Made by a program: the position numbers and the translations under genes
Shown: piece by piece, positions 1,794 through 34,313 of the stretch
Layout of the letters: each line of letters opens with the position of its first letter
How positions within the stretch are numbered: position 1 is the stretch's first letter
Notes under the pieces: generated by a model
Databases searched by the model: none
The model's input: only the letters and a program-made list of their open reading frames with translations
What the model was told of the DNA's origin: nothing
Assembly: GCA_016935565.1 (NCBI GenBank)
Contig: JAFGQS010000079.1
Location: 1 to 35,023, forward strand
DNA: 35,023 nt
DNA from: Deltaproteobacteria bacterium
GTDB lineage: Bacteria > Desulfobacterota > Syntrophia > Syntrophales > UBA6807
Direction of reading: 5' to 3'

Positions 1794-2201
1794 CTATCCG
1801 CCAATCATGACCTTTGTCTGACTGGGATCCAATTGACTACCCACAGGACAATTGGCATTGTTTCCGTTATGTGCCGTCTGGCAGCCCAGATAAACGGCGG
1901 GATTACCCTCAAATTTAACTTTTGAACTGAATGATGTAAATTTAACGGGCCCCTTGATCATCCCCGAGATAAGACCACCCGCGGACCCCGCCTCATCTCC
2001 CGAGCTCTGGGGAATTTCCGTTTTTTTGGTCAGGGCTTCCTTCATACAGATCTTAACAACCATCGAAACCGTGTCGCCCCTTGCCTGATTACACATACCC
2101 ATGTTGGGAAATGGTGTCGGAATGGGACCGACGGGACTTGGCACATTACAGACATCAGGTGTTCCCATGAGTTGTCCGGCTTCCTTCGTTGACGCAAACA
2201 T
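1794..2201 (-). CDS. PAAR-like DUF4150 protein (T6SS spike tip)
   Basis: This 135-residue protein has the hallmarks of DUF4150, a PAAR-like family. PAAR proteins sit on the tip of the VgrG trimer, sharpen it, and link cargo effectors to the spike. Visible signs are the N-terminal VCNVPSPVGPIPTPFPN segment (about 17-33), the Cys and Asn residues following it, the central KFTSFSSKVKFEGNPAVYLG strand region (about 87-106), and a small C-terminal beta strand (KVMIGG). The protein ends directly after the domain, so no toxin is fused; effectors would have to bind non-covalently or via the neighbouring DUF2169/pentapeptide proteins. A GAGG ribosome site lies about 8 bases before the ATG. Confidence 0.88.
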   Translation of the reverse strand: MFASTKEAGQLMGTPDVCNVPSPVGPIPTPFPNMGMCNQARGDTVSMVVKICMKEALTKKTEIPQSSGDEAGSAGGLISGMIKGPVKFTSFSSKVKFEGNPAVYLGCQTAHNGNNANCPVGSQLDPSQTKVMIGG

Positions 2202-2231
2202 ATGAAGACCTCACTTTTCTCAATTACTCCG

Positions 2232-3152
2232 TTAATAAACCGGCTGCCATTCCTCCGCTTCGGCCAGATCAGGATCTGTTCCGTGAGCCCTATCTCTGCT
2301 GGAGCCTGTCCAGGTTGTGTCTTTTTCATGAACACGATGCAGTTTAGCTCCCGCCAGATCAGACTTTGTAAAATCAGCGAATTCAAGATTGGTGTGAGAT
2401 AGATCGGCAAAAGCCAGGTTGACCCCGACAAACTTTGTACCCCTGCATACGGCATGCGACATGATACAGGCCGTAAGATCACTGCGGGTCAGATCGGCAC
2501 GTGTCATGTCACACTCCTCAAAGAAGGACTCCCGCATGAACGCATTTCGACATGATGCGCTGTTCATGTGTGCGCGGGTAAAGTCTGCAGCATGGGCCTG
2601 TATGGTATCGAGCCCTGCATTCGTCAAGATGGCTTCCGTAAGATTGGTCTGCGTCAGATCGGCCTGTGAAAAATTCGTTTCCTTACAATTGCAGCCTTTT
2701 AAATCCGCATTTGTCATATTACACCCTGACAGATTCTGCTTGCTCACGTCGGCACCGGAAAGATCTGTTTTGACGAAGGTGGCCCCGTCAATCCGGCTCG
2801 TAGTGAAATCCATCCCGGCACAATCGGCTTCGGTAAAATCGGCTCCTGTGAAATTGCAGTCCGCTACCTTTGCATCGCCGAGTTCCAAGCGGGTTAAATC
2901 AGCACCAGACAGATCCGAAGCCGTGAGCTTTGCATTGGTCAGATCGGCCCACGACAGATCGGCATTCGTCAGTTCACAATTTGCGAATGTCGCACCGGAA
3001 AGTCTGGCTTCCGTGAACCGTGCATCTTTCAGCACTACAGCATCGAATACCGCCCCGGTAAGATTTTCACCGGACAGGTCGATCCCTGACAGATCTTCCG
3101 ATTGAATTGCCTCTCCCCTTCGAATCCGTGTCAGCAGTTCTTCTCTCGTCAT
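2232..3152 (-). CDS. pentapeptide-repeat protein, T6SS cargo/adaptor module
   Basis: About 306 residues. After a short N-terminal helix (MTREELLTRIRRGEAI) almost the whole protein consists of A(D/N)LXX-type pentapeptide repeats (for example LSGADLTRLELGDAKV), which form a right-handed square beta-helix. The last 35 residues (HEKDTTWTGSSRDRAHG onward) are not repeats. Pentapeptide proteins are structural scaffolds or protein-binding rods, and some mimic DNA. The ATG at 3152 overlaps the stop of the preceding DUF2169 gene by four bases (ATGA), so I prefer it over the in-frame GTG at 3164. This coupling implies co-production with the larger pentapeptide fusion. Whether it is an effector, an adaptor or an immunity protein cannot be told; no catalytic domain is present. 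Confidence 0.88.
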   Translation of the reverse strand: MTREELLTRIRRGEAIQSEDLSGIDLSGENLTGAVFDAVVLKDARFTEARLSGATFANCELTNADLSWADLTNAKLTASDLSGADLTRLELGDAKVADCNFTGADFTEADCAGMDFTTSRIDGATFVKTDLSGADVSKQNLSGCNMTNADLKGCNCKETNFSQADLTQTNLTEAILTNAGLDTIQAHAADFTRAHMNSASCRNAFMRESFFEECDMTRADLTRSDLTACIMSHAVCRGTKFVGVNLAFADLSHTNLEFADFTKSDLAGAKLHRVHEKDTTWTGSSRDRAHGTDPDLAEAEEWQPVY

Positions 3153-5761
3153 TTCGGCACCCACCGGGCAAGTTTGGTTCTCTTCAGGTTTGCATCCTGA
3201 AAATTGGTTTTATTTACCGTTGCCTTTAAAAACTCGACCTCGAAGAGATTTGAGCCCTTCAGATCGGTACGTACAAGTTTCGCTTTGGTCAGATCCCCCC
3301 TGAACAGGTTGATTGACGTCATGTCGGCATCGGTCAGATCGGCCCTGCTGAACTTTGCCTTTTTTGCCACAGCCCGATAGAAATCAGAACCCGGCAAGTT
3401 ACACCTCGATAGATCAGTCATAGTGAGCGTTGCGAAACGGAGAATTGACGACGTCAGGTTTGCACCCTCCCAGTTCGCCTCGGAAAGATCCGCCTTCTGC
3501 AAATCAGCTCTTTCAAGACGTGTACTATCATCGGCCCGGCTTTTGCGTAAATCCGCCTTTTCAAAATTGACAGACTTCCCCGTTGCACCCTCGAATGTGG
3601 CCGAGTGGGCCACTGTTTCCGCAAAGTTTGCATTCTGAATGTCGGCATCGGTGAAATCCGCCCGGGTGATATCGGCTCCACGAAAGTCTGTTTTCCGTAA
3701 ATCGGCAGCTGTAAAGACGGTCCATTGCGCCGAAGCTCCTTTAAAACGGGCACCCTCAAGTTTTGAATTTTCCAGTATTGCATTGTCCATGCATGCCTTC
3801 TCAAAATTGCCCTGCGAAAAATCACTCTCAGTTATATCGGCATCAGAAAGATCAGAATGAGACATATCGGCCTCGTGACCGTGAACCCTGCTGAGAAGAC
3901 AGCCTTTCAAGTACGATGATTTGAGATGCGCCCTGTCCACGACTGCACCGGTCAGCACAGCGCCGGACAGATCAGCCCCAGTAAGATTGGTACCGGCAAA
4001 ATTTACATTCTCAAGAATTGCACCCTTCAAGTCAATACCATTGAGATCCAGACGGGCCAAATCGAGGCCCGACAGATCCTTCCCGGAAAAGCTTCTGCCC
4101 TCTTCGTAGTCTTCGATAACCTTCTCCCGGGTGAATACCTCTTCCGGTTCCGGCTCAGGCCCTTCTTCCTCGGACGGCTCTTCTTTTTTCAGTTCCGCCT
4201 CCCGCTTTTCTTCCTCTTCAAGCAGTGCGGCAAGTTCTTTTTCGGCTTCTGCTCTCTCCTTTTCCATTTCGAGGAGGTATTTTTCCGTCTCGGGATCGTT
4301 GATACCCGCTTCTTGCATTTTTTCGATAAGTTCTTTCGTTGACAGGGGTTCTTTCTGTTCTAAGACTCCCATAAGCTTATTTGGATCTGCCCCCATATCC
4401 TTGAAAATCTTTTGCAGCTCAGCCTCTCCCCGGGCAAGCTCCTTCTCAAGATCCTGAAGCGATAATTCCCCCGGTGTTTCAGTGGCTGCAGGAATGGTCA
4501 GACCGGCAGCAACAGGCAGTTCTTTCATGATTTGTTCTATATCGATGCCTCTTTCTTTAAGATCATTCATCAGTGCTTTTTCTGAGGCGGCAATCTTCTC
4601 TTCCAGTTCCTTGATCATCGCTTCAGCTTCGGGATCCATAGCTGCTTTTCCAGCAGGCGGCTCCATGGGCTTGGTTATTATTGCAGGCTCTTCCTCCTTG
4701 GGCGGTTGGGATTCCGGTTCCTCAGCAGTCTCTTCCTCCTCAATTCCGGCAAAATATATGTCCCGGTAATATTCGATTGGCTTTTCCGGTTCTATGAGAA
4801 ATTCATGGACAACATAAGCGGTATGAATGTCAGTTGCATCATCATCCTGAACCTGAATCGTCGCTCTCCAGATGACGACGCCCGTCTCATGTTCGGGAAA
4901 CAACCACACCGTATCCAGGCGTGTTTTCAACTCTTTGAAAATCTCTTTACCGTTGTCTTCCTGCCGAACGAAACATCGCATTCGCAATCCCGGTAATAAG
5001 GTTTTGATGGCATATCGCTCGGGATGCATGTTCTCTACGACAATATTTTCATCCCCGGTGAAATATCCCGCAATCTGCTGATCTTCCGAGGCAGCATTGA
5101 AGTATGTCCAGTCCATATCCTCCGGGTACCAGGGCCATCGGGTCTCGAGCCATTTCCGGTCGTAGGTGCCGAGCTTGCCGGCCCGCTGCTGCCAGTCCGG
5201 TCCCAGCGGTCCGAAACCGGCTGGTTTGGGTCGGTCGGATGGGGAACCGATTAATTGGTCAGCATATTCTATGTTTGGTAAAGGGATCGTGCCTTCGGCT
5301 CCATCCGATTCAATTCCCTTTCCAAGCGTATTCCATTCATACCCGGGGCCGCCGAAGGCATTTTCATAGGTGATGTCCATCTCCGTCATGGGCTTCGGGT
5401 CGGCAATTCCTGTCGTCATCCCTGCTTTTTTTATCCAGCAGCGATCACCGAAGACGTGTAATGTTTTATTAACGGACCCAACTGAAATTCTTACACTGTC
5501 TGCCCGAACGGGCTTCCTGCCGGGGCTGAAATATTTCCCCGCTGCCAGGACCTCTCCCTTCTGCTTGGGCATAAACATATCAAGAACATCATGGTTCGAC
5601 AGGGCGGAACCGGCTGCACTCCAGAGGTCGGTCTCGTCCAGCAGTTTTTCGGTATCATCAAACGAAAAGGCACTCATGACAGTAATGGCCAGGTAATGCT
5701 CACCTTGTGCCATAAAATACTTGGGAAAAACCGAGTGTACATCCTGCTTATAAATGTTCAT
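3149..5761 (-). CDS. DUF2169 protein fused to a pentapeptide-repeat domain
   Basis: This 870-residue protein has three parts. Residues 1 to about 335 form a DUF2169 domain (ITVMSAFSFD, ITYENAFGGPGYEWN, RYAIKTLLPGLRM). The family recurs in T6SS loci beside DUF4150 and is proposed to act as a loading adaptor for PAAR-like effectors. Residues 340-545 are a highly charged Glu/Lys/Pro-rich, coiled-coil-like linker. Residues about 555-865 are pentapeptide repeats (FSGKDLSGLDLARLDL and onward). It follows vgrG by 11 bases and overlaps the next pentapeptide gene by four. The architecture suggests an elongated adaptor joining spike and cargo; that role is inference. No signal peptide or catalytic residues are apparent. 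Confidence 0.9.
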   Translation of the reverse strand: MNIYKQDVHSVFPKYFMAQGEHYLAITVMSAFSFDDTEKLLDETDLWSAAGSALSNHDVLDMFMPKQKGEVLAAGKYFSPGRKPVRADSVRISVGSVNKTLHVFGDRCWIKKAGMTTGIADPKPMTEMDITYENAFGGPGYEWNTLGKGIESDGAEGTIPLPNIEYADQLIGSPSDRPKPAGFGPLGPDWQQRAGKLGTYDRKWLETRWPWYPEDMDWTYFNAASEDQQIAGYFTGDENIVVENMHPERYAIKTLLPGLRMRCFVRQEDNGKEIFKELKTRLDTVWLFPEHETGVVIWRATIQVQDDDATDIHTAYVVHEFLIEPEKPIEYYRDIYFAGIEEEETAEEPESQPPKEEEPAIITKPMEPPAGKAAMDPEAEAMIKELEEKIAASEKALMNDLKERGIDIEQIMKELPVAAGLTIPAATETPGELSLQDLEKELARGEAELQKIFKDMGADPNKLMGVLEQKEPLSTKELIEKMQEAGINDPETEKYLLEMEKERAEAEKELAALLEEEEKREAELKKEEPSEEEGPEPEPEEVFTREKVIEDYEEGRSFSGKDLSGLDLARLDLNGIDLKGAILENVNFAGTNLTGADLSGAVLTGAVVDRAHLKSSYLKGCLLSRVHGHEADMSHSDLSDADITESDFSQGNFEKACMDNAILENSKLEGARFKGASAQWTVFTAADLRKTDFRGADITRADFTDADIQNANFAETVAHSATFEGATGKSVNFEKADLRKSRADDSTRLERADLQKADLSEANWEGANLTSSILRFATLTMTDLSRCNLPGSDFYRAVAKKAKFSRADLTDADMTSINLFRGDLTKAKLVRTDLKGSNLFEVEFLKATVNKTNFQDANLKRTKLARWVPK

Positions 5762-5772
5762 GCCTCACCCGC

Positions 5773-8610
5773 TCAACCGAGTTTGACCTTTTTACCGTTA
5801 AAATTAAATTCGCTTCCTCTGAAATTAATGCGTGTACCATCAGAGCCCACATCGACCGATTTACATGTTTTCTCACCCTGCCCTATCTTGACTCCGGCAG
5901 TATCGATCTCGACGGCTGTTTCTGCCATCACTCTGATTCTCTTTGCCGAAAGATCCATCTCGATCTGTGCTATAGGATCAGTATCTTTATTTTGTCGGAT
6001 ACTCAGTTCCAACTGATCCTTTATGCTGTCCAGTTTTACGATGCACTTTTCATTCTCCAGTCTGATTTCCGTCCCCTGTTTCTTTGCGGAATAACCGGCA
6101 TTCGGATTTCTAATCTGCATCGTACCGATAATTTTATCTGGTTTTTTAAGCTCATGAAGATTGAATTTTATCAACCCTGCCCCGGCGCTCTCTTCAATAC
6201 CTGTGACATCATCGAGAATGATCTTAGATCCGCCCATTTCAAGCTCGATCATGGGTTCCTGTTCTTTCCTGTTTATGGCAATCAGTCCCTTCCGTCCTCG
6301 AGATTCCCCGGTCAATATCAGATTCTGGCTTTGTATCGTTGCTTCTTCAAGTGCTTCGATATGGAGTTCTTCACTCGAATAAAGGTGTATGCCCTTATCG
6401 CCGGCAATATCGACATGCCCAGCCGTTGACGCAACGAGCACATCGGGCGACGCCTTGTTCAGCTTTATTAACGATGCACATCGCGGATCGATAAGACCCT
6501 TTACGAAATCATATGATTCCCATTTTCCCAGCTTTTGCGGAATATGAGAGACGAGGGCGACACCATACGAACCGGCGGTGCCGAACCCGTAGGCCCGGGC
6601 AACCAGTTGCAGATAGCGCGTGTGCTCCGTAATCCATTTCCACTTCTCCGTCAATCCTTTACCTTTCCACTTTGCGGTAAATTCCTGCGCACTCTGACCA
6701 TATTCGCTGTCATCTCTCACGAGTCCCTTCTTCTTTAAATGCTTTGCCATGGAGGACATGATCCAGCTGTCAAACATAACCCCGAGAATCGAGGGCGTCA
6801 CTGAGAGAAGTGTTTCCTGGGTCTTTGTCCAGTTCTTAAAATGCGTACCTTTATCAATGGCACCCATCCGGTGTCCCAGTTCGTCGCATTCAGCCACTTC
6901 CTGGCTCCACCGCTTGAGCAGGTTGATTCCGACCCGGGGGATCAGTGAGCCGGACATGGCACTCCAGCTGAAAGAATTCGCAATGGTGGTGCCGTAGCTC
7001 GCCATTGTCATATAATAATCGGCGCAATTTGCTTGATAATCACTCTGTGTCAGCAGTTTCGAACTACTCCCCGCCCCGCATATGATGCGGGTTTTGCCAT
7101 CGCCTGAACCGATTAAAATCCTTTCATGCCCTTCATTATCCTGCATCGATATCTGGTTGCCGCTTGCTGACTTAAAGCCGGCCCCGGTGGGATTCCCCGT
7201 GTTGATTATACTCGGTGTTTCCGGATTCGGCACCGCACCCTGGATGATCGGCCTGTCGGGATCTCCATCGATAAAGGTAAGCAGGACCTCTGTCCCCTTG
7301 TGGAGGGGAAAGTGCATGCCGTGATCGGAACCGGCATAAGGCTGGGCCATCCGAAAGTAAGCGGAGGCCTTGCCGTCTTTCCTTCCACTCACGTCCAGGG
7401 GAAGAACGACTTTGTATCGACCGTGATCATCCAGTTCGGCATATTTACCGGTCCCTGCCGCATCAACCCGGGCATTCATCGTTCCGTAGAAACGCGGCTT
7501 TTCAGTCTTCCGCTCGGGACGAAACTGGACATCGGAAGGGATGGACATAAAACCGTTCCGATAGTATGGCTGCTCCTCAACTTCGGCAAGACCTTTCTGA
7601 ATGCCTGCCAGCAGATAGCCGGTCTGACTCCCCTCATGATCGATCTCAATGGTAAGATACTGTCGATTGAAACCATCCCGATAGTGATCCTCCAGATCGA
7701 AAAGGTATCCCGGTCGTAAATAGGGAATGGTACTCTCCCCGTGAATCTGCCGCTCCTGACAGAGAAGTTCTTCCGCCCTGATCTTTGCGAGGGCATTTCC
7801 TTCCGCCATGGTTCTAAAGTGCTCTCCGTAGATATAGACATCGCCCCTCCCGTCGGGTGATACTTCAGCTGTCCCTGAAATCTCGAGAGAGGGGGTCCGG
7901 TAGTTGTAGTCCTTGAGCCGCAGTGTCCGGGGAAGCATCTTCTGCTTCAGGATAAAGGCCTTGATCACTTCCTCCCGGTGTAATTCATCCAGACCGGAGG
8001 GCGGAGAATAATACATGGTCTTTCCTTCGGGCATTTCCATGTGAGCGAGTTTGGTATCGGTGATGATGACTTTCTCCCCCGATTCGGTCTGTTCAAAATA
8101 GAAGTACATCCCTTCCCGTTCCATCCAACGGGTCACGAAGCTCAGATGGCTCTCACGGTACTGACAGATGTATTCCCACCGGGGATATTCTTTCTCCAGT
8201 TTGATTTCAAAGTCGAGGGTTGTGAGGCCGCCGTCCTTTAAGACTTCTTCAATCATTTCCGGTACCGTTTTGTTCAGGAGAACCTGGTTATGGTAGGTCA
8301 GTGAAAGCCACCACATCTTCGGCACCAGGACGGCACGGTAAAAGACGTATTCGTCTACCTCATGGAGCTGCTCAAACTGCTCCAGGATTCCGTGGAAGGG
8401 TATATCGCCCTCTTCACGAACGATGGTAAAGGTAACCGGATTTTTCAGCACCGCGGTCAGGTCAACCTCAGCATCGTGGGAGACGAGATCGATCTCGAAG
8501 TGATAACACCGGGAAAATCCCTCGGACCCCCTGAATCGGACCACCCCGAAGGTGTCTTCAGGTAAGGCTCGGGATACAAAATCGAACTTTTTCTCCGTTA
8601 GATAAGCCAT
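5773..8610 (-). CDS. tssI: VgrG spike protein with a central helical insertion
   Basis: A 945-residue VgrG, the trimeric T6SS spike related to phage gp27/gp5. Residues 1 to about 340 are gp27-like (FVSRALPEDTFGVVRFRGSEG, then YRESHLSFVTRWMEREGMYFYFE). Residues about 370-510 are the gp5-like OB fold and neck (ARVDAAGTGKYAELDDHGRY, EVLLTFIDGDPDRPIIQGAV, NQISMQDNEGHERILI). Beta-strand repeats resume from about 720 to the C-terminus (HVDIAGDKGIHLYSSEELHIEA). Between about 520 and 715 lies a roughly 195-residue Trp-rich, mainly helical insertion not expected in a continuous spike. At about 650 residues for ordinary VgrGs, this one is long. AGAGGTG precedes the ATG. It is followed by the adaptor/PAAR-like module, fitting spike assembly. 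Confidence 0.96.
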   Translation of the reverse strand: MAYLTEKKFDFVSRALPEDTFGVVRFRGSEGFSRCYHFEIDLVSHDAEVDLTAVLKNPVTFTIVREEGDIPFHGILEQFEQLHEVDEYVFYRAVLVPKMWWLSLTYHNQVLLNKTVPEMIEEVLKDGGLTTLDFEIKLEKEYPRWEYICQYRESHLSFVTRWMEREGMYFYFEQTESGEKVIITDTKLAHMEMPEGKTMYYSPPSGLDELHREEVIKAFILKQKMLPRTLRLKDYNYRTPSLEISGTAEVSPDGRGDVYIYGEHFRTMAEGNALAKIRAEELLCQERQIHGESTIPYLRPGYLFDLEDHYRDGFNRQYLTIEIDHEGSQTGYLLAGIQKGLAEVEEQPYYRNGFMSIPSDVQFRPERKTEKPRFYGTMNARVDAAGTGKYAELDDHGRYKVVLPLDVSGRKDGKASAYFRMAQPYAGSDHGMHFPLHKGTEVLLTFIDGDPDRPIIQGAVPNPETPSIINTGNPTGAGFKSASGNQISMQDNEGHERILIGSGDGKTRIICGAGSSSKLLTQSDYQANCADYYMTMASYGTTIANSFSWSAMSGSLIPRVGINLLKRWSQEVAECDELGHRMGAIDKGTHFKNWTKTQETLLSVTPSILGVMFDSWIMSSMAKHLKKKGLVRDDSEYGQSAQEFTAKWKGKGLTEKWKWITEHTRYLQLVARAYGFGTAGSYGVALVSHIPQKLGKWESYDFVKGLIDPRCASLIKLNKASPDVLVASTAGHVDIAGDKGIHLYSSEELHIEALEEATIQSQNLILTGESRGRKGLIAINRKEQEPMIELEMGGSKIILDDVTGIEESAGAGLIKFNLHELKKPDKIIGTMQIRNPNAGYSAKKQGTEIRLENEKCIVKLDSIKDQLELSIRQNKDTDPIAQIEMDLSAKRIRVMAETAVEIDTAGVKIGQGEKTCKSVDVGSDGTRINFRGSEFNFNGKKVKLG

Positions 8611-17385: not shown

Positions 17386-18954
17386 TTATTTTGTCAGTCG
17401 TAGCGCTACGACGGGACTTATCTTGGTAATGCGATCCATGGCTTCCGTTGCCTGATCCTGAAGTTCCTTGTCCGTTTGAACCGTTAAACACCTGTATACT
17501 TCCGTAAGCGCTGAAAGAACAAGATCGGGGTCCCAGTTATCAAGATGATGTTTGTTAATGTCATCCAAAATTTCTCGGAGGTGGGGCACCGCAAGTCTTG
17601 CTTTCTGGGCATTCGTAAGCAGCCTGATAAGAACAATTCTCCACAGGAATCGAGATTGTTGTGATGTTCCACCTGACAATTTTTCCTGGATAAGTTCCAC
17701 GGCTTCTTCTAATTTTTTCTTTTTCATCAATGCTTCCGATTGTTTATAAACCTTATAAATCTCTGTTTCTTCAGAATCCGCGTGTGTTTTGCCGGGAATA
17801 ACAAAAGATCCTTTCGTTCCGCCGCTTTTATCGATGGCAATACTTTTTAACCACCCTTTTGTATCCTCATCGGCAAAGGGGGTTCCGTCCGAGAAAGACA
17901 GTTCTTCAATCCCCGGCAGGCGACTGACATATGTTGCCGTTTCCTGTACTACAACACTATGCGCTTCCTCGTAATCCAGTTCCTCAAGAGCTTCGGCAAC
18001 ATAATGACTCAGATCAAGCCAGAACAGGAATTGTCCGACACGACCTTCAGCAGATTCCAGGAGGCCTTTATATTCCTTCTTTTGATACAGGTTTTTCATG
18101 GCTTTTATAATTTCCTGCATCGGTGGCGGTATACGTGTTTTTCCATCCTCGGCAGGAGGAAGCTTTTTCACAGGCAGCCATGCAGCCAGTCTTGTCAATC
18201 GATAGCTCATTTCATTGGACGGATCGTTTTTCATGAAGATCGTCGCGGCCTGACTGAGCAGGTCCAGTCCGTTGCTCAATACTTTGTCCGGATTCTGCAC
18301 CGGTATGACATCGGTACTTTCTTCCTGTTTAATGATCTTCTCAGGTGGTGGGGGCTCGTGCCCCGGCAGGATACCTCCCTCTTGTTGTTCCGCCGTCTCA
18401 GGCCCTGCTTCGTCCTGCAGCGCCGCGATGCTCTCCTGTAATTGATGCAGGGATGGAGGATCATCCACATGTTCATCAAAAAACGATCCGATTGCCCCCA
18501 CGATTTCGTTGAGGTTGTCAACTTTTTCTTCCGTCAGCGAAAGATTCGGAGGAAGAGATTTAATAGCCGATATGATACCGTCTTTCCACCATTCAATCGC
18601 GTTCTGGCGACCTCTCATTCTTTGTATCGGGGGGAAAAGAACGTCCCAGAAAGTGTCCAGCATATCTCGATAGATGACCAGTCCTGTTTCCAGCCCATCC
18701 ACGCCCCTGGATCGCACAAGGGCAACACAAAGATAGCTTGCAACCAGAAGATGTTTTGATTTTTCCGCGATAATAGTCGTACAAAGTTTGATAACTTTAT
18801 TCCAGTCAACACCCCCTTCTGATGTGGGAGATGTGAGCTTTTCAATTTCGCTCTGCAACTCATCGTATTCAGGTTCAAAACGAACATCACTACCTGACGG
18901 ATTGTCCTGATTAATCGGTGTTTTTCCGAGTTCAATGAGTTCCATAATTTTCAC
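17386..18954 (-). CDS. tssA: TssA (ImpA-type) T6SS tail-assembly cap protein
   Basis: TssA contacts the membrane complex and baseplate and coordinates tube and sheath growth. The 522-residue product begins with an ImpA_N domain: DNPSGSDVRFEPEYDELQSE (about 17-36), then WNKVIKLCTTIIAEKSKHLLVASYL and YRDMLDTFWDVLFPPIQRMRGR (about 100-122), which identify it. The middle has a Gln/Glu/Pro-rich linker (about 190-225); the C-terminal part is helical (VasJ-like), so this is a long-form TssA. The start is uncertain: GTG 18954 or ATG 18945; neither has an obvious ribosome site. Confidence 0.93.
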   Translation of the reverse strand: MKIMELIELGKTPINQDNPSGSDVRFEPEYDELQSEIEKLTSPTSEGGVDWNKVIKLCTTIIAEKSKHLLVASYLCVALVRSRGVDGLETGLVIYRDMLDTFWDVLFPPIQRMRGRQNAIEWWKDGIISAIKSLPPNLSLTEEKVDNLNEIVGAIGSFFDEHVDDPPSLHQLQESIAALQDEAGPETAEQQEGGILPGHEPPPPEKIIKQEESTDVIPVQNPDKVLSNGLDLLSQAATIFMKNDPSNEMSYRLTRLAAWLPVKKLPPAEDGKTRIPPPMQEIIKAMKNLYQKKEYKGLLESAEGRVGQFLFWLDLSHYVAEALEELDYEEAHSVVVQETATYVSRLPGIEELSFSDGTPFADEDTKGWLKSIAIDKSGGTKGSFVIPGKTHADSEETEIYKVYKQSEALMKKKKLEEAVELIQEKLSGGTSQQSRFLWRIVLIRLLTNAQKARLAVPHLREILDDINKHHLDNWDPDLVLSALTEVYRCLTVQTDKELQDQATEAMDRITKISPVVALRLTK

Positions 18955-19042: not shown

Positions 19043-21361
19043 TTATTGGCCCCAGCAGTCTGCAATCACTGTCGGCGTCTGCCGGGGAACCTTTTCCATC
19101 AATTTAATAACTGGTTTACTATCGGTAATTTCGTACGACACCTTAATTTCAGTGACATTCAATTCTTTCAATATTCCTTGAGCCTGATGAAAATCTTCGG
19201 GCGTAAAGGTTTTGCTGCCGTCCTTGAAGTCGGTCAGGAATAGAGGGAATCCGTCGTGTCCCGAATATTTCTTCGTCAATGTCAACCCTTCGAAGTATAT
19301 CTGGAGCGTCAAATCACCACAATCTCCCGGAGACCAGGTGAACATCTTGCCGGCCGGGTGGTTGAAATTGTCCAACCGTGTCTTCCCTTTCACACACCCC
19401 AGTTCAATTGATACTTGATACGGTTCTTTTTTTGCACTATCATTCACATCAATGGGCAGTGTCCTGATCTGAACGTTATAGTCTGGTTGCAGCGATGTGC
19501 TGACTTCGGCCCCTCTCGTTATAAAGGAGAAAAAACTATTCTCGAATGGTATACGAGCCCCTCTCGCCTTTTTAGCATAATATCCGTGTTGATTTCGACC
19601 CAGGAAGGGAGCCGCAGGTCCATTGACAAATTTCCATACCACTCCTTTTTCACTGAAGAGCAAATCAGGCAATTTTTCGGGAGCAACGCCCTGAATGCCG
19701 CCGAGAACGATATCCTCCCAGTCGTGCTGAAGAGAACATGCGGTCTCCATGCTTACATAAAAGAGCAAGAAGAGGGCCGGACCTGAAATAAGATTCATTG
19801 GAATGGAAAAATCACTTCCCGATGAGAGATAATTTTCAAATTTCTGAACCTCTCCAAAGGCAGAAAAAAACGGTGACTTGCTTTCCGAGGGTTTCAAACT
19901 GTATGGGAAAAACTCCGATGCCGCTTTGTATGCCTGACTTCTCGCAGTCGAAACGGGCAGAAGGTTTTCCAATTCAGCAAGATAGGCATTAAATGTCTTT
20001 GCGGCATAGAGCCGTTGTTCCTCACGTTCCTTATCCGTGAGAGCTTTCGCCTCCTTCACCACATCATGAACCAGCTTTTCACCTTTTTCGACGGCCCTGG
20101 TCATGATTGATGTTTCCTTTTGTCCGCTCTTCTCCTTGGCGGCATAATCAATTATGGACTTAACATCGATTATTTGCTTCACCCATTCAGGAACATTTTT
20201 CCCGTCTGCAAATGGTTTTAATTGCTTACTCATCGACTCTATGAGATCGAAATATGGATTGTGTGGTGTCGTCATTTCCGAGGCCATGTTCTGCCAATCA
20301 TCAGGACTGCCAAGGTTGAATTGTCCCTTTGAAAATGAATTCGCAAAATATTTCCAAGCCTGGAAATATTCTTTTTGATACCACTGTAAAAACTTTTTCT
20401 TCTCCTCGGTTATATCGATATAACCGGGTAATGCACCTTCAAGATAGCCGATAAATTCATTAATCTCTTTAAAGCCGTTCTCGGTGAATGCCCCGTCAAC
20501 GATAATTTTATCCCCTGATTTTTGAGAGTTATCGGGACCCCAGTAGTCATCCAATTTTATATCGCGAATCGTCACGTCATTATTAGCCCACTTAACGAGC
20601 CAGTTCAAATGTTCGCTTTTCTTGTAAATCAACTGAACAAGCTCAGTCTGCAGTTTCTTTATGTTTGATTGTGCTGTTTTTTTATCGATACCGCGGTCAA
20701 GATAATACAGGTAAATATCCCTGAATTTTTCAGCCGTCGCCGGCTGTACATTTCTATCGAGCAGTATGAGAATATCGGACAAGGCATTAATGAGATTCTG
20801 TGATTTCTTTAACTGTCCACCCTCTATATATGCCTGTGTGAGTTTTATTCTTCCTACAAGATGCTCGGCATACACCATAATATCGTTTCCCGGAGTATCC
20901 GCCGTTATCTCAGCCATTTTTTCTTGCAACATTCGATTCATCGGCTTGACAAAGCCCGTCTCAAAGAGATCGACATACTGTTTCGTAAGCCTCTTTTCAA
21001 CATCCAGTGTATTTCTCAAACCGAATCGCGGAATCCACCAGTTCTGGTTGGCATCATGCAGTTCCAGCAATTCGGTTCGAAACTTGTCCATCACAATCAG
21101 GTTATCGGATATGTTTTTCGTGAGGGCAGGAGGTTTTGAAAAATCCTGTGTAAAACCATGTAATACACTGATATTTTTCATAAAAGAGAAGGTAAGTAAA
21201 CCGCACACGGCCAACCATAACGCTACCCACGACAAGAGGCCAAGATTCCTGGTCAACTGACGCCATTTGAGAAATTCAAGTATCGGTGTAAATAAATTCC
21301 TGTCTTCGGGTAAAATACGGCGGAAAAAATCATGGAGAAAAAATCCTTTATTTGCCCCCAT
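19043..21361 (-). CDS. tssM: TssM C-terminal part (periplasmic domain of split IcmF)
   Basis: This 772-residue product is the second portion of TssM, the inner-membrane component of the T6SS trans-envelope complex. It starts GANKGFFLHDFFRRILPEDRN, the segment that normally follows the cytoplasmic GTPase-like domain; a transmembrane helix follows at about 40-60 (LLSWVALWLAVCGLLTF). The rest is the large periplasmic domain that binds TssJ, ending in the beta-rich C-terminus with the GVVWKFVNGPAAPFLG segment. Its ATG lies in the overlap with the upstream tssM part: AATGGGGGCAAATAA supplies both the stop of one and the start of the other, with AAGGA 8 bases before the ATG. Together the parts total 1164 residues, the length of one ordinary TssM. 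Confidence 0.93.
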   Translation of the reverse strand: MGANKGFFLHDFFRRILPEDRNLFTPILEFLKWRQLTRNLGLLSWVALWLAVCGLLTFSFMKNISVLHGFTQDFSKPPALTKNISDNLIVMDKFRTELLELHDANQNWWIPRFGLRNTLDVEKRLTKQYVDLFETGFVKPMNRMLQEKMAEITADTPGNDIMVYAEHLVGRIKLTQAYIEGGQLKKSQNLINALSDILILLDRNVQPATAEKFRDIYLYYLDRGIDKKTAQSNIKKLQTELVQLIYKKSEHLNWLVKWANNDVTIRDIKLDDYWGPDNSQKSGDKIIVDGAFTENGFKEINEFIGYLEGALPGYIDITEEKKKFLQWYQKEYFQAWKYFANSFSKGQFNLGSPDDWQNMASEMTTPHNPYFDLIESMSKQLKPFADGKNVPEWVKQIIDVKSIIDYAAKEKSGQKETSIMTRAVEKGEKLVHDVVKEAKALTDKEREEQRLYAAKTFNAYLAELENLLPVSTARSQAYKAASEFFPYSLKPSESKSPFFSAFGEVQKFENYLSSGSDFSIPMNLISGPALFLLFYVSMETACSLQHDWEDIVLGGIQGVAPEKLPDLLFSEKGVVWKFVNGPAAPFLGRNQHGYYAKKARGARIPFENSFFSFITRGAEVSTSLQPDYNVQIRTLPIDVNDSAKKEPYQVSIELGCVKGKTRLDNFNHPAGKMFTWSPGDCGDLTLQIYFEGLTLTKKYSGHDGFPLFLTDFKDGSKTFTPEDFHQAQGILKELNVTEIKVSYEITDSKPVIKLMEKVPRQTPTVIADCWGQ

Positions 21362-22526
21362 TTACAATATCCTTTGGTTCTTTCAAAAGTAAATCCTGGT
21401 AGAGTGCAGGATGAGGAGCACCCTCCTGATGCCCGCTGCTGAAGAAAATCCCCCTCAAGAGTGGTGTCTCCTGATACGTACTTTCCTTGAATGCACCTCT
21501 CGCAAAAGCCATGAGTCCGGGCTGTAATCGCTCGAATTCATCAGGGAATATCAGCACTCTCGGATTGACACTTTTGATACGGTTGATAAGTTCCAGTCGG
21601 ATATCTTTGAGACGACCCGACACGGTATGCATAGCCTCATCAAGAAATTCCTCGCAATCGTTCGTCAAGGTCTCGTTGAGATGGCCCATGGCCTGATTCA
21701 GGGTTCCTTCCGGCAACAGCAGGCTGAAGTCCATCATTCCATAGATCAGATCCGCCTTGGACACCATCAAATAGACGGGAAATCTTGCACCGAGGATTCG
21801 CATCAGGGCGTCGATACGCTTCCGTATACTCTGGCCTTCATCCGTCAGGACATCTCCATCGCCATCCATAATTTTATCGGCACCGACAACAACGATCAGA
21901 CCGTTTATCGGTTCCCTTTTGCGATATTTTACCAGAAGGGTCAGAAACCGTTCCCACTCTTCTCTATCGGGCCCCTCATCTATTGGTATGGTATAACGGC
22001 CGGCTGTATCAAGAACGATTGCTTCCTCGAAAAACCACCAATCACAATTTTTTGTTGAAGATATACCCGGCGTGCTGGCAACCTCCGTAAGAGGTGAGGT
22101 CAACCGTGAACTTTTAATCGCCGTGGTTTTTCCGACGCCTGATTCTCCTATCACAAGATACCAGGGCAGAACATACAGGGGATTGCCTTTCTTTTTCAGG
22201 TACGAGTTTCGCAGAAGATCTATCGATTCCTGCCACCGTAGTTGCAGGTCCTTAAGCTTTTGTCGTTCATGGACGGGGGCACCCTCTATCGCCGATTCAT
22301 CCTGATCAATTATTTGTTTGACGAATCGCTGCTCCCGGCGCCTGAAAAAATATTTCTTCAGAAACAAAAAACCCATCCATAATCCGAACAATCCAACCAG
22401 TATGGCCAAACCGACCCACCAGGGCCAGCTTTTTTTCAATACAAACCAGAAAATGATGGCGGCAAGGACACCGATAATGAAAACATACAGGAGTATTTTA
22501 AAAATTTTATAAACTATGTCCTTCAT
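21348..22526 (-). CDS. tssM: TssM N-terminal part (membrane and GTPase-like domain of split IcmF)
   Basis: This 392-residue product is the first part of TssM. Two transmembrane helices (about 10-30 and 37-57) are followed by the cytoplasmic NTPase-like domain with Walker A GESGVGKT (127-134), the LDTAGRY switch segment and VYLMVSKADLIYGM. It ends just after LLRGIFFSSGHQEG, a landmark that in full-length TssM is followed without interruption by FFL-type sequence now at the start of the next frame. The +1 shift between frames coincides with a five-G run, and removing one G would fuse the two into a continuous reading frame. Domain content alone is intact, so a functional two-piece protein is possible. 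Confidence 0.93.
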   Translation of the reverse strand: MKDIVYKIFKILLYVFIIGVLAAIIFWFVLKKSWPWWVGLAILVGLFGLWMGFLFLKKYFFRRREQRFVKQIIDQDESAIEGAPVHERQKLKDLQLRWQESIDLLRNSYLKKKGNPLYVLPWYLVIGESGVGKTTAIKSSRLTSPLTEVASTPGISSTKNCDWWFFEEAIVLDTAGRYTIPIDEGPDREEWERFLTLLVKYRKREPINGLIVVVGADKIMDGDGDVLTDEGQSIRKRIDALMRILGARFPVYLMVSKADLIYGMMDFSLLLPEGTLNQAMGHLNETLTNDCEEFLDEAMHTVSGRLKDIRLELINRIKSVNPRVLIFPDEFERLQPGLMAFARGAFKESTYQETPLLRGIFFSSGHQEGAPHPALYQDLLLKEPKDIVNGGK

Positions 22527-22614: not shown

Positions 22615-23289
22615 TTATTTTCCAAAGAAATCGGTAATAAGTTTCTCCAAGATATTCCGGTACATCACTAATAAGATCCCGAACAGCGCAGGCGGCACAA
22701 TCAAAAACAATAGATTAAAGAATGACAATGAACTTCGGAACCCGTGCACTCCACTATCGTCCGATGAGGATTTATAGGCTCTCGGGAAAAGGCTCTCACT
22801 ATCCGACGACGCCTTATCAATCACGCTTTCATTGGACACGTATTTATAGTTTGATTCCCTGACGGCTTCAAGACGAGCTTCATCCTTTTTTTTGAAGTAG
22901 CGACCCTTAAATCCCATGGCAAGACAATAAGCATAGACCTCTCGAACTGCTTTTGCTTCAGGAGCCAGCTCGCCGAGTCTATCAAAGAATTCTTCCCCTC
23001 CATTCGTCGTGCCATAATACGTTCGCTGAAGTTGATCATGAATCCACAGGGTTTTTCCTTCCCATGATGAACACAAAATGCTCTCGTCAACCCAAGCACA
23101 GACGGCAAACCGTGCATCCGCCCATTCTTCTGCAGAGATATTTCCTTTTTTCAGTCGCTCTTCTGCAAGATCAAAGAGTGTAGTGTAATCATTTTTAACT
23201 TTCTCAAAAGCGGGCTGTTCTCTCCCCCCAATCCTGAGCAGATCCGTTGTATACGTTACGATGTCAATAAAACAATCAATTAAACGCAT
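22615..23289 (-). CDS. tssL: TssL, DotU-type inner-membrane protein
   Basis: TssL is the inner-membrane partner of TssM in the T6SS membrane complex. The 224-residue form starts MRLIDCFIDIVTYTTDLL, a typical DotU beginning, continues with the cytoplasmic helical domain (RFAVCAWVDESILCS, about 77-91; EEFFDRLGEL, about 119-128) and ends in one C-terminal transmembrane helix (FFNLLFLIVPPALFGILLVMY). There is no OmpA-type peptidoglycan-binding extension, so anchoring to the wall would need another protein. I chose ATG 23289, which has AGAGGG 7 bases upstream; a TTG at 23376 would add 29 residues that do not look family-like. Confidence 0.93.
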   Translation of the reverse strand: MRLIDCFIDIVTYTTDLLRIGGREQPAFEKVKNDYTTLFDLAEERLKKGNISAEEWADARFAVCAWVDESILCSSWEGKTLWIHDQLQRTYYGTTNGGEEFFDRLGELAPEAKAVREVYAYCLAMGFKGRYFKKKDEARLEAVRESNYKYVSNESVIDKASSDSESLFPRAYKSSSDDSGVHGFRSSLSFFNLLFLIVPPALFGILLVMYRNILEKLITDFFGK

Positions 23290-23436
23290 ATAATTCCCTC
23301 TTGAAACATTCCACCCTTTCAAGAATGCCGCATTGAAAGTGTTATCATCTTCTGTCTTTTCAGAATTTCGCCTCAATAAGCCTGAACTTTAAATCCTTAC
23401 ACTTTTAACTTGTAATTCTTAATTTCAAATTTTTGC

Positions 23437-24831
23437 TTACGTTCCTCTCAGAATCACAATATCAGCAAGAAGGTCGTCCGGTGCCGTATCCCAATAAAGT
23501 GAAATATTCTGCGAACGTTGGACATCAGACCATTGGGAACCATAATGGTCAATCTTGAAGTAAAAAGAGTTGGGTCGCCTTGGGAGGCCCGGTGGCGGAA
23601 CGAGGCTTTGTTCCAAATTAACTCCGTGAAGTGCACGAGAAATGAGGGTACCGATGTGATCAGAACTGCTTAATTTAGCTATAGTTTGAATGATTTCAGG
23701 GACGCTGTCCGGATCAATATTTGTCCTGATAACGAGATAAAATATATTACGACTATCGAAGGCATTGGCAGGAATTTCGGCTGCAAAATAATCTCCATCA
23801 CGTTTCAATCGAATGATATGTTCAGGACCGATGATAATCCTGTTGAGCAAACTTCCTATCAGGTTATGAGCCGAAGAAAAACAAGCCCATAAGTCCTGAT
23901 GATCGTAGTTTGGTAACACCTGCGTCCCGTCGAGTAATTCCCCCGTTGCGCTCACCTGCTCTGCAAATGTACTTAATTCACCAATGATTTGTCTGAGAAC
24001 ACCATAAAAAGCCCAGGGGTGAATATTCGGTGTTTCTGTGAGATGATTCAGTATTGGCACAAATCTGTTCAAAGAACGGAGAGCAAGTAAATATATTATA
24101 TATCCCGATTCAAGATCGGTCGATTGAATTTCACGGGGACTTTTATATTCTTCGAGCTGTCGACAGCGGGCTGTTACTTGATCGCGAATGTCTCGTATCA
24201 TTCTGGCTACCTCACCCGAACCGGAAACCGCAATCAGGGGAGGTATAAATTCTTGAGATAATTTGATTTCGTTACCATCGCGCTGCAGTTGAGCCAGAGG
24301 TATGAGATGATAGTTTTGCAATTCCTCCAGTTCATTCTCCCAAAAAATCTTGAGGACATAATGCAATCTCTTTACCTGGGCCCGAGGCCCGTTGCCATAC
24401 ATATCAACCATTGCTTCGGGAGTCTCAGTCGTGACAAACCGTGTCGTTACATCCGAAATATTATCTAATTGCGGAAGAACGGTAACATTCTGCGTTTCTT
24501 CATGAAATTTTCGCAAGCCCAGATAAATGGTAAACGGCCTCTCTCCTTCAACCCACGCATCATCAAATGATCGGGTTTGAATCACACAGTTAGTCGGGAA
24601 AACTGATGCAGTTCCATCCTGGAACAAAAACTCCCCTTTCCGGAGTTCAAACCGCCGGTTCGTTAACGCATCTTCGTCCACATCAAGAGTAACAACGCCC
24701 CAAAAAAAAGGATGCTGATATTCCAGGACGGGAGAAAGTAAAGACTGATTATATAAATCCAGATATTGAAAATGCTGTGGCTGTAGGAAAAGGCCCTGAT
24801 GCCAAAACAGCGGTCTTTTTGAAATCATCAT
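23437..24831 (-). CDS. tssK: TssK baseplate protein
   Basis: TssK is the trimeric baseplate protein linking the TssF/TssG wedge to the TssL/TssM membrane complex. The 464-residue product begins with the diagnostic LFWHQGLFLQPQHFQYLD (about 8-25), then FFWGVVTLDVDEDAL and the KGEFLFQDGT strand. The C-terminal half contains the receptor-binding-like domain (ELSTFAEQVSATG, RLKRDGDYFAAEIPANA, NSFYFKIDHYGSQW). Length is standard. Its ATG overlaps the tssJ stop by four bases (ATGA), so the two are translationally coupled. Confidence 0.96.
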   Translation of the reverse strand: MMISKRPLFWHQGLFLQPQHFQYLDLYNQSLLSPVLEYQHPFFWGVVTLDVDEDALTNRRFELRKGEFLFQDGTASVFPTNCVIQTRSFDDAWVEGERPFTIYLGLRKFHEETQNVTVLPQLDNISDVTTRFVTTETPEAMVDMYGNGPRAQVKRLHYVLKIFWENELEELQNYHLIPLAQLQRDGNEIKLSQEFIPPLIAVSGSGEVARMIRDIRDQVTARCRQLEEYKSPREIQSTDLESGYIIYLLALRSLNRFVPILNHLTETPNIHPWAFYGVLRQIIGELSTFAEQVSATGELLDGTQVLPNYDHQDLWACFSSAHNLIGSLLNRIIIGPEHIIRLKRDGDYFAAEIPANAFDSRNIFYLVIRTNIDPDSVPEIIQTIAKLSSSDHIGTLISRALHGVNLEQSLVPPPGLPRRPNSFYFKIDHYGSQWSDVQRSQNISLYWDTAPDDLLADIVILRGT

Positions 24832-25385
24832 TTGCCCCCACTCTGTTGAATTTTATTTGATCCCAACGAAAGGTTGATGATGAGTTCCCCTGGAATCGGC
24901 GTGTTAAAAAGCAACCACTTTTTCTTTGTAACGATTGGAATTTCGAATAGTTTCTTTATTTGATCAGAATTTAAATTAAAATAACCTGCAACCAATCCGA
25001 CCCATTTTGCATTCTCTTCCCTGTCCAGTTGAAGTGTCTTACTTTCACCCGGCTGAACAATAATACGGGTAAAACCTGCAACACTCGTATCAAAGCGGGA
25101 ACATTCAAGAAGCTTCGTTAAGCCATCATCGCTTTTTGACAATTCATTAAAGACATTCGGCTCGCTGAGCTGGAAAAGACACAGAAGAATGGTATGAGGT
25201 TTCCCGTCATAGACATTGAGATCTTTGCTCGCCTGATATGAAATTGTTATCGATTTGGGACTGTATCCCCAGACGAGATCGGAGTCGGCGGAATCGGGTT
25301 TCTTGCCGGTAGCACACGAACTGAGGAATGATGATACAAAAATGAAAAGGAACACAGCAACAAATGGAACTTTTGTTTTGCCCAC
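24828..25385 (-). CDS. tssJ: TssJ outer-membrane lipoprotein
   Basis: TssJ is the outer-membrane lipoprotein of the T6SS membrane complex, binding TssM in the periplasm. The preferred form is about 185 residues: a lipoprotein signal peptide (GKTKVPFVAVFLFIFVSSFL) with lipobox LSSC, Cys about residue 24, then a transthyretin-like beta sandwich (SKDLNVYDGKPHTILLCLFQL, TRIIVQPGESKTLQLD). The reading frame is open to a GTG at 25448, but the probable promoter at 25438-25467 lies within and just upstream of that extra part and would start transcription after it; two GTGs at 25385-25388 preceded by an AGGGGGG ribosome site fit better. It is the first gene of the T6SS operon. Confidence 0.9.
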   Translation of the reverse strand: MGKTKVPFVAVFLFIFVSSFLSSCATGKKPDSADSDLVWGYSPKSITISYQASKDLNVYDGKPHTILLCLFQLSEPNVFNELSKSDDGLTKLLECSRFDTSVAGFTRIIVQPGESKTLQLDREENAKWVGLVAGYFNLNSDQIKKLFEIPIVTKKKWLLFNTPIPGELIINLSLGSNKIQQSGGK

Positions 25386-25437
25386 CACAGCCCCCCTGCA
25401 GGTCTCTTGAGTTACCTCTATCAGCGTCGATGCGCGT

Positions 25438-25467
25438 ATTATCACCACTAAGTCATTTATGTGTCAA
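25438..25467 (-). promoter_or_regulatory. sigma70-type promoter of the T6SS operon
   Basis: On the minus strand a perfect -35 hexamer TTGACA (25462-25467) is followed after 18 bases by GATAAT (25438-25443), a five-of-six match to the -10 consensus. Transcription would begin near 25431, giving a leader of about 43 bases before the tssJ GTG at 25385. No other promoter of this quality is evident between tssJ and vgrG, consistent with one long transcript. The prediction is from the hexamers alone. Confidence 0.68.
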
Positions 25468-31228: not shown

Positions 31229-32071
31229 ATGGCACGACCGATACGCATAGAATTTGAAGGTGGTTTCTACCATGTGACCTCCCGGGGAAATACCCGGCAG
31301 GAAATCTTCGCCGACACCGAAGACTACCGGACGTTTCTCTCGACCCTTGCCGATGTGGCCGAACGCTATCGCTGGCTTGTCCATGCATACTGCCTCATGG
31401 ACAACCATTATCACCTCCTGATTGAAACGCCCCAGGCCAATCTCTCCCGGGGCATGCGCCAGCTCAACGGTGTGTACACCCAGAAGTATAACAGGCGCCA
31501 CGACCGTGTGGGCCATCTCTTCCAAGGCCGCTATAAAGCATTCGTTGTCGAAAAGGATGCCTACCTTCTCGAACTCAGCCGATATATCGCATTGAATCCC
31601 ATACGGGCGGGACTGGTTTCCTCACCGGAAGATTGGTCCTGGTCCTCCTACGGTGTGATGGCCGGTATGAGACCAAAAGAATCGTTTCTTCACACAGACT
31701 GGATGCTTGGTTTATTCTCCCCGTCGAAGGTTCAGGCCCATGAACTGTACACCTCTTTCGTTATGGAAGGATTGGATAGAGAAAATCCGTTGAAAGAAGC
31801 CAGAGGGGGACTGATATTGGGGCGCGGAACATTTATTGAAAAAGTCCAAAAGTTAATTGAAGACTCGGAAACCGGCGAGGCGGTGCGAATGGAAAAGTAT
31901 GCCGCACGTCCTTCTCTCGCGGAGATATTCGAGGGCATGGAACGAAACGAAGGTATCTATCATGCCGTGTACCGCTGGGGATATAAACTGACGGATGTGG
32001 GCAATCATATTGGACTTCACTATTCACGGGTCAGTAAGATCGCTTCAAAGGTGGCAAAGAGCAAGACCTGA
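31229..32071 (+). CDS. REP-associated tyrosine transposase (RAYT, Y1/HUH)
   Basis: A 280-residue protein of the TnpA_REP (Y1_Tnp, IS200-like) family, which cuts single-stranded DNA at REP-type hairpins using an HUH metal site and a tyrosine. The opening is MARPIRIEFEGGFYHVTSRGN; the HUH motif is in MDNHYHLLIE (about residues 52-61), the nucleophilic Tyr is probably in GVYTQKYNRRH (about 81-91), and the family block HLFQGRYKA and ALNPIRAGLV follow. The extra C-terminal helical part (about 165-280) is longer than in simple family members. It appears intact. The stop codon falls inside the right-hand repeat copy. Confidence 0.92.
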   Translation: MARPIRIEFEGGFYHVTSRGNTRQEIFADTEDYRTFLSTLADVAERYRWLVHAYCLMDNHYHLLIETPQANLSRGMRQLNGVYTQKYNRRHDRVGHLFQGRYKAFVVEKDAYLLELSRYIALNPIRAGLVSSPEDWSWSSYGVMAGMRPKESFLHTDWMLGLFSPSKVQAHELYTSFVMEGLDRENPLKEARGGLILGRGTFIEKVQKLIEDSETGEAVRMEKYAARPSLAEIFEGMERNEGIYHAVYRWGYKLTDVGNHIGLHYSRVSKIASKVAKSKT

Positions 32072-32101: not shown

Positions 32102-32746
32102 GTGTTGAAAGTAACGATACTATACGACAATACGGCCTGGAGGGATGATCTTATAGCCGACTGGGGGTTTGCCTGTCTGGTTGAGGCATATGGGAAAAAA
32201 ATCCTTTTTGATACCGGGGCCAAGGGTTCCATCCTTTTCGGTAATATGAAAAAGTTGAAAATTGACCCGACCTCTATTGAAGATGTGGTTATCTCACATG
32301 CGCACTGGGATCACACAGGCGGTCTTGTCGATTTTCTCAGTAAATTTAATAATATCAGACTTTTTGTACCGTCATCATATGCCGTACCCCCTCACGCAGC
32401 CAGGGAGGTCATTTCCGTTCATAAACCGATCGAAATCGCTGACAACATCTTTTCCACCGGTGAACTTAAAGGAATGGAACAGGCCCTTGTCGTTACTACG
32501 GAGAAGGGAGTGGTGGTCATCGTCGGGTGTTCTCATCCCGGTGTAAAGGAAATTGTCAATGCTGCTTCCCAGCATGGAAATATATTCGCCCTTATCGGAG
32601 GGTTACATGGATTCAATGAATTCGGAATTATAAAGAATATGGGGCTTATCTGTGCTACACATTGTACGCAGCACATCACTGAGATAAGATCACTGTATCC
32701 CGAAATCTTTGTAGAGGGTGGTGTCGGAAGGCTGATTGAACTCTGA
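32102..32746 (+). CDS. metallo-beta-lactamase-fold hydrolase, cytoplasmic
   Basis: A 214-residue metallo-beta-lactamase-fold protein with HAHWDH (about 63-68) as the dinuclear zinc motif, then GCSHPG, GGLHG and ATHCTQH supplying further ligands. It resembles the family that includes archaeal ribofuranosylaminobenzene-phosphate-type enzymes, but substrate is unknown. There is no signal peptide. Start is GTG 32102, or TTG 32105, behind AAAGGAGA. The exported relative at 33477-34313 is a clear paralogue (shared ILY, DWGFACLV, GSIL and NM motifs). It starts 26 bases after the RAYT repeat. Confidence 0.88.
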   Translation: MLKVTILYDNTAWRDDLIADWGFACLVEAYGKKILFDTGAKGSILFGNMKKLKIDPTSIEDVVISHAHWDHTGGLVDFLSKFNNIRLFVPSSYAVPPHAAREVISVHKPIEIADNIFSTGELKGMEQALVVTTEKGVVVIVGCSHPGVKEIVNAASQHGNIFALIGGLHGFNEFGIIKNMGLICATHCTQHITEIRSLYPEIFVEGGVGRLIEL

Positions 32747-32913: not shown

Positions 32914-33396
32914 ATGAACGAAATAATATACAAATCAATCGGCATTATTCATTCCCCCTTCAAGGACATGGAAGGGATACCGATTCAACCGACAGCATCT
33001 AAAGGTATTGCCGGAACGGCCGAGGTGAAACCTCAATACGCAGATGGCCTGAAAGATATTGATGGTTTTTCACACATCATATTGCTGTACCATTTCCACC
33101 TTTCAAACGGTCCGTTACTCCACGTTAAACCCTTCCTGGATAATACGCTACGGGGGATCTTTTCTACACGGGCACCACGACGGCCGAATTCTATCGGGCT
33201 TTCCATTGTTCGCCTTACCGGAGTTGAGAATAATGCGCTGTATATCGAAGATGTGGACATCGTCGACGGAACACCCCTGCTGGACATAAAACCCTATGTT
33301 CCGCAATTTGATCACCGTGACGTTAATAACATCGGATGGCTCTCAAAAAATGTGAACAATGTTCATAAGACGAAGGCAGACAACAGATTCAAATAA
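32914..33396 (+). CDS. TrmO-like tRNA N6-methyltransferase (TsaA family)
   Basis: A 160-residue protein of the TsaA/TrmO family; TrmO uses S-adenosylmethionine to methylate N6-threonylcarbamoyladenosine at position 37 of tRNA-Thr. Visible landmarks are IGIIHSPFKD (about 8-17), DGFSHIILLYHFH (about 49-61), FSTRAPRRPNSIGLSIVRL (about 83-101) and DIVDGTPLLDIKPYVPQFDH. Some TsaA-family members in metal-linked clusters have other or unknown roles, so function rather than fold is the uncertain part. It lies between the two metallo-beta-lactamase paralogues, with a 167-base upstream gap holding nothing evident. Confidence 0.87.
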   Translation: MNEIIYKSIGIIHSPFKDMEGIPIQPTASKGIAGTAEVKPQYADGLKDIDGFSHIILLYHFHLSNGPLLHVKPFLDNTLRGIFSTRAPRRPNSIGLSIVRLTGVENNALYIEDVDIVDGTPLLDIKPYVPQFDHRDVNNIGWLSKNVNNVHKTKADNRFK

Positions 33397-33476: not shown

Positions 33477-34313
33477 ATGATAGTCTCCAGTATGCGCAGT
33501 ATGCGGAATGGCAAAAAGCAAGACCTGACCCCCATTCTTTTTCTGGTTTTTGTGGTATGCATTATTATGCTACCGAGACTCGTTGAAGCCGGTGCGCAGT
33601 CTACCACGATTACTATTCTTTATAATAATGTTCCTGGGAGGACGGATTGCATAACAGATTGGGGTTTTGCCTGTCTCGTCAAGGGCAAAGAAAAAACCGT
33701 GTTGTTTGATACCGGACAAAATGGAAGCATTTTACTCCATAATATGAAGTGTATGAACGTCGATCCCGGAAGTATCGATGTCATTGTTTTGTCGCATATT
33801 CATAGTGATCACGCCGGGGGACTGGCTGAATTTTTAAAACATAGGAATAATGTGGTGGTTTATGTCCCGGCATTTTTTCCCCTGCATTTTAAACGTGCTG
33901 CCAAGACGGAAGGTGCAACTGTCGAGGAGGTGAGTAACGCGAGACAGCTGTGTAACGATGTGTCCACGACTGGGGAGATGGGATTTGGAATTCGGGAACA
34001 GGCCTTGATAGTGGAGACATCAAAAGGGATGGCAATCATCACGGGCTGTGCCCATCCCGGCATTGTCAATATCGTAAAGACGGCACAAGAACAACATAAC
34101 GACAATGTTTACATGGTCATAGGCGGATTTCACCTCTCCTCGATGTCTTCAGGTGAAATCGAGCATATTATCTCCCGTCTTCGGGAATTGGGTGTCCGAA
34201 AGGTTGCACCCAGTCACTGCACCGGAGCACAGGCTCTAGATTTATTCCGAGATACCTGGGGAAAAAATTTTATCGAGGGTGGCGTGGGTGCCATTATCGA
34301 GTTGCCGTATTAA
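33477..34313 (+). CDS. exported metallo-beta-lactamase-fold hydrolase
   Basis: A 278-residue paralogue of the protein at 32102-32746 with an added N-terminal signal: a basic start (MRSMRNGKKQ), hydrophobic core (ILFLVFVVCIIMLP) and a possible cleavage near EAGAQS. The mature part holds HIHSDH (zinc motif), GCAHPG, GGFHLS and PSHCTG, the same ligand set. It would act in the periplasm or outside the membrane. A GGAGG ribosome site lies 7 bases before ATG 33477. The signal n-region NGKKQDLTP is encoded by the third copy of the 26-bp RAYT repeat, so the repeat forms part of the protein. Its substrate is unknown. Confidence 0.88.
   Translation: MIVSSMRSMRNGKKQDLTPILFLVFVVCIIMLPRLVEAGAQSTTITILYNNVPGRTDCITDWGFACLVKGKEKTVLFDTGQNGSILLHNMKCMNVDPGSIDVIVLSHIHSDHAGGLAEFLKHRNNVVVYVPAFFPLHFKRAAKTEGATVEEVSNARQLCNDVSTTGEMGFGIREQALIVETSKGMAIITGCAHPGIVNIVKTAQEQHNDNVYMVIGGFHLSSMSSGEIEHIISRLRELGVRKVAPSHCTGAQALDLFRDTWGKNFIEGGVGAIIELPY
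33508..33533 (+). repeat. 26-bp RAYT-associated repeat, copy 3, inside a coding sequence
   Basis: Identical over all 26 bases to copy 1 (reverse complement), 2.3 kb away, but here inside the coding region of the exported metallo-beta-lactamase-fold gene, about ten codons after its start. The reading frame continues through it without a stop. Confidence 0.85.

Follow-up and report, generated by a model that had tools for sequence, protein, structure and literature searches.

The tssM gene of a T6SS cluster was found to be divided into two overlapping open reading frames, ORF1 (TssM-N) and ORF2 (TssM-C), in a contig of a Deltaproteobacteria bacterium (JAFGQS010000079.1; the whole stretch analyzed, 35,023 nucleotides, is called the window), and the same division was observed in two divergent relatives, the three split copies forming one clade with both halves constrained. 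This arrangement is probably an old and functional fission of tssM, giving a two-protein TssM in which ORF2 is most likely coupled to ORF1 and the two halves would act as one. It is a conserved and modestly surprising fission of a core secretion component, the parts of which are ordinary and the arrangement unusual.

Domains and junction of the split tssM

The T6SS cluster is located on the minus strand in the order tssJ, tssK, tssL, tssM (two frames), tssA, tssB, tssC, hcp, tssE, tssF, tssG, tssH and vgrG, with the tss genes identified by position and family match, and the split tssM has the location of TssM, within the cluster and beside tssL (Table 1). That the two frames are complementary sections of one TssM (392 + 772 aa), as the first-pass annotation of this DNA had proposed, was borne out by the profile matches: positions 8–377 of TIGR03348 (TssM) were matched by ORF1 and positions 396–552 by ORF2, and the Pfam IcmF-related_N profile was interrupted between the ORFs, with profile positions 4–198 in ORF1 and 217–258 in ORF2. 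ORF1 matched PF14331, the IcmF-related N-terminal NTPase domain (E 1.1e-49), and ORF2 matched PF06761, the IcmF-related domain after TM3 (E 3.7e-9, above the family cut-off). Two TM segments were observed in ORF1 (TM1, about 11–29, and TM2, about 38–56) and a single one in ORF2 (TM3, about 40–58), which gives the three that TssM requires; a borderline hydrophobic stretch at ORF2 518–536 scored lower than the TM segments. The 39-residue tail ahead of TM3 is basic and predicted to lie on the cytoplasmic side, the 20 residues preceding TM3 containing 4 K/R against 2 D/E (net basic). The split site falls in the cytoplasmic TM2–TM3 loop, directly ahead of the conserved NKGxFLHDFF motif. Because the domains and the genomic place are those of TssM but the single continuous polypeptide is absent, with two overlapping frames instead in the window and in both relatives, ORF1 and ORF2 together are a split variant of TssM and not standard TssM.

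Table 1. Positions in the window of the split tssM, its junction elements and adjoining tss genes.
Feature	Position	Strand	Description
ORF1 (TssM-N)	21348..22526	-	392 aa; TM1, TM2, cytoplasmic NTPase domain, Walker A GESGVGKTT
ORF2 (TssM-C)	19043..21361	-	772 aa; tail, TM3, periplasmic part, IcmF-related domain
Overlap ATG-GGGGCAAA-TAA (ATG-N8-TAA)	21348..21361	-	14 bases; identical length and position in L008 and L009
G5 run within the overlap	21355..21359	-	C5 on the plus strand; G4 in L008, G3 in L009
AAGGA Shine-Dalgarno-like site	21370..21374	-	8 bases upstream of the ORF2 ATG
tssL (DotU)	22615..23376	-	domain match
tssA	17386..18954	-	domain match
tssJ lipoprotein	24828..25448	-	domain match
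tssK	23437..24831	-	domain match

At the junction, ORF1 ends in VNGGK-TAA, while ORF2, which is read in +1 with respect to ORF1, begins with ATG GGG GCA AAT AAA; the G5 run, the AAGGA before the second ATG and the ATG/TAA overlap that had been noticed earlier are all present there. A start/stop overlap with the upstream gene is an arrangement typical of translational coupling, and in all three genomes the overlap is accompanied by a Shine-Dalgarno-like site inside the upstream gene (AAAGGA, AAAGGA and GGGGA, each with 8-base spacing). The anti-SD energy of the ORF2 start ranges from -5.3 to -5.7 in the three split copies and beats that of several other tss genes as called in our analysis; the site is a moderate one, since 18% of the in-frame cluster positions score equally well. 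The ORF2 start position is occupied by Met in 3/3 split copies, compared with Pro in 34 and Met in none of the 45 fused TssM. Translation initiation at the putative ORF2 ATG is thus favored, as Met occurs there only in the split copies and all three have a Shine-Dalgarno-like site. RNA folding around the junction revealed no structure common to the three split copies. The length before the junction differs between split and fused TssM, and the idea that the split site is a variable linker is weakly supported, because the stretch before the junction (conservation 0.65) is barely less conserved than its flanks (0.71 and 0.67).

Relatives, constraint and distribution

Relatives were sought among same-family genomes and in a public genome collection, and two further split copies were obtained, one from the same phylum (L008, JAGHDE010000018.1) and one from the same family (L009, DSDU01000037.1). 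The known split copies are only these three, all from metagenome-assembled genomes, and L008 is a 3.6-kb contig from a bin that is 76% complete. In both relatives, the N-part and C-part lie in different frames, are split at the same codon and show the same ATG-N8-TAA layout, with protein identities to the window's ORF1/ORF2 of 79/61% in L008 and 74/55–59% in L009. The first-pass annotation had suggested comparing the junction in related genomes, and had held that a single fused tssM in all of them, with no slippage, would favor a simple frameshift; L008 and L009 proved to share both the break and the 14-base overlap, so that the nearest relatives are split and only the next ones outward are fused. 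The split position shared by two divergent relatives places the overlap far beyond chance.

Among the split copies, LWL85 dN ranges from 0.14 to 0.19 for ORF1 and from 0.23 to 0.30 for ORF2, with dS between 1.26 and 2.80 (near saturation), and the nucleotide differences are mostly at third codon positions. Strong purifying selection acts on each half. Extra frame changes were observed in L009 only, at a G8 run in tssM-C (4185–4192) and inside tssC (about 8563–8572), which may stem from misassembly, decay or local slippage.

The phylogenetic tree of 48 TssM of the phylum, comprising the 3 split copies and 45 fused ones that are each one open frame, grouped the split copies in one clade (SH-aLRT 100), the sister group of which includes fused TssM of the same order. 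ORF2 shares mostly 30–38% identity with the fused relatives of the phylum. Searches of 155 genomes from the order and class, of 395 from the whole phylum and of two more of its classes detected no fourth split copy. Three candidates for an independent split were ruled out: compared with its sister L015, L014 lacks about 56 residues (a gap of about 170 bases), the contig of L079 is fragmented and contains Ns and stops, and L080 matches only distantly, in the NTPase alone and in a different context. Among plasmid records, TssM was represented only by distant matches, with about 19–24% identity at the best places listed, and no sequence relative of ORF1 or ORF2 was found in the PDB.

The window's genome harbors a second T6SS cluster on another contig (L081), the TssM of which is fused, 1161 aa long and 36% identical to ORF2. 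Transfer or contamination is suggested for this cluster, because the nearest kin of its TssM in the tree belongs to another family (f112). Since the same genome thus has a fused TssM in its second T6SS, the split characterizes this locus and not the organism's TssM generally, a reading qualified by the estimated contamination of the draft (3.4%).

Explanations of the split and a two-subunit TssM

Canonical TssM / IcmF (TIGR03348, PF14331 + PF06761) is one polypeptide of about 1150–1200 aa, with three TM segments and a C-terminal domain that binds TssJ (PMC3213119), and in Agrobacterium its conformation changes on ATP binding through the Walker A (PMC3953482). The split variant retains the domain order, the place between tssL and tssA, the three TM segments and the Walker A, but is formed of two polypeptides broken in the cytoplasmic TM2–TM3 loop. 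T4BSS IcmF (NF038226), to which ORF1 has a weak match (E 4e-4), belongs to the same superfamily and is encoded by a single gene of a different secretion system. No report of a two-gene TssM was found in the literature searched (open-licence full text), and the nearest precedent is Citrobacter rodentium tssM1, which is broken at another place and by another mechanism than the split tssM. In C. rodentium tssM1 and Yersinia pseudotuberculosis tssM3 (PMC4256274), the frame is likewise interrupted and continues in another frame, with more than one TssM product, as is predicted for the split locus. However, the break in those genes comes after all three TM segments and loses the C-terminal beta-domain, whereas here it falls between TM2 and TM3; and their frames are joined by an A11 run, transcriptional slippage at which is needed in C. 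rodentium (PMC4256274), whereas in the split tssM no run is conserved and the downstream frame is provided with a conserved start of its own.

This precedent, in which tssM slippage with two required forms is documented (PMC4256274), is an argument for programmed frameshifting, transcriptional or +1 ribosomal, which would produce a joined TssM at the overlap besides or in place of the two proteins. With ORF2 in the +1 frame, a joined product is geometrically possible, and AAA-TAA-A is common to all three overlaps. The slippage proposed earlier at the G5 run is nevertheless unsupported, because the run length differs in the three copies (G5, G4 and G3), in contrast to the A11 of C. rodentium; no slippery site, including any recognised +1 site, is shared by the three junctions, and the conserved ATG and Shine-Dalgarno-like site of ORF2 would be superfluous under frameshifting alone. 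We consider frameshifting unlikely, although a minor frameshift product may be made. A recent inactivating indel, by which tssM would be a pseudogene in a dying T6SS, might be argued from the broken tssM seen elsewhere in the phylum (the gap of L014 and the fragmented L079) and from the additional frame changes that L009 shows in tssM-C and tssC, but the remaining core tss genes of the window are intact and the identical break occurs in three divergent lineages. A dead gene is contradicted because two open, constrained frames have been kept over near-saturated synonymous divergence, and its probability is very small. Smaller still, and close to negligible, is that of a sequencing or assembly error: the homopolymer lies at the junction itself and the source is a 196-contig draft, yet two independent assemblies carry other bases and shorter runs there with the same frame relation, and a shared homopolymer artefact is excluded because the junction bases differ among the three copies.

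The two-subunit TssM with coupled translation, which the first-pass annotation had listed among its options, gains from the conserved split in three divergent genomes and from the constraint on both halves; the coupling is what we infer from the layout of the junction. TssM-N would be a TM1–TM2 hairpin bearing the cytoplasmic NTPase domain, and in TssM-C the short basic tail, on the cytoplasmic side, would be followed by TM3, serving as signal anchor, and by the periplasmic part, which extends to TssJ in canonical systems. Judged from sequence, each half can be inserted into the membrane alone, because TM1 and TM2 lie within ORF1 and the TM3 of ORF2 is preceded by the basic tail, which fits a signal anchor with the N-terminus inside. 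Translation of ORF2 would begin from the ORF2 ATG, which is served by a modest Shine-Dalgarno site in the final stretch of ORF1; coupling to the translation of ORF1 is the most likely mode and would keep the subunits near 1:1. In the inner membrane, the two halves would come together again as one TssM within the TssJLM complex. It is likely, though with less assurance than the fission itself, that the locus provides a natural two-subunit TssM of non-covalent assembly, in which the NTPase and envelope-spanning roles are separable and the stoichiometry variable. AlphaFold2 modeling of a 575-residue TssM read-through on a 5-row alignment (window, L008 and L009) gave a mean pLDDT of 41 and a pTM of 0.21, too low for the model to be used.

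The T6SS membrane complex has TssM as its backbone, and little is resolved about how the cytoplasmic NTPase half of TssM communicates with the periplasmic one. A natural split would mean that, in this lineage at least, TssM can dispense with the covalent TM2–TM3 link, and it would offer a ready-made two-part system for assigning roles to the halves. Automatic annotation could mislabel such split loci as frameshifted pseudogenes.

Genes around the cluster

Downstream of vgrG, at window positions 1794–5761, a large protein with pentapeptide-like repeats at its end was recognized by eye, together with another pentapeptide-repeat protein and a short protein, rich in glycine, resembling PAAR-like tip proteins; these are possible T6SS tip or cargo genes. 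Two related metallo-beta-lactamase-like proteins (32102–32746 and 33477–34313) are located on either side of a small gene (32914–33396), and the pair looks like a local duplication. A protein resembling REP-associated transposases, also identified by eye, is encoded at 31229–32071, adjoining the T6SS cluster.
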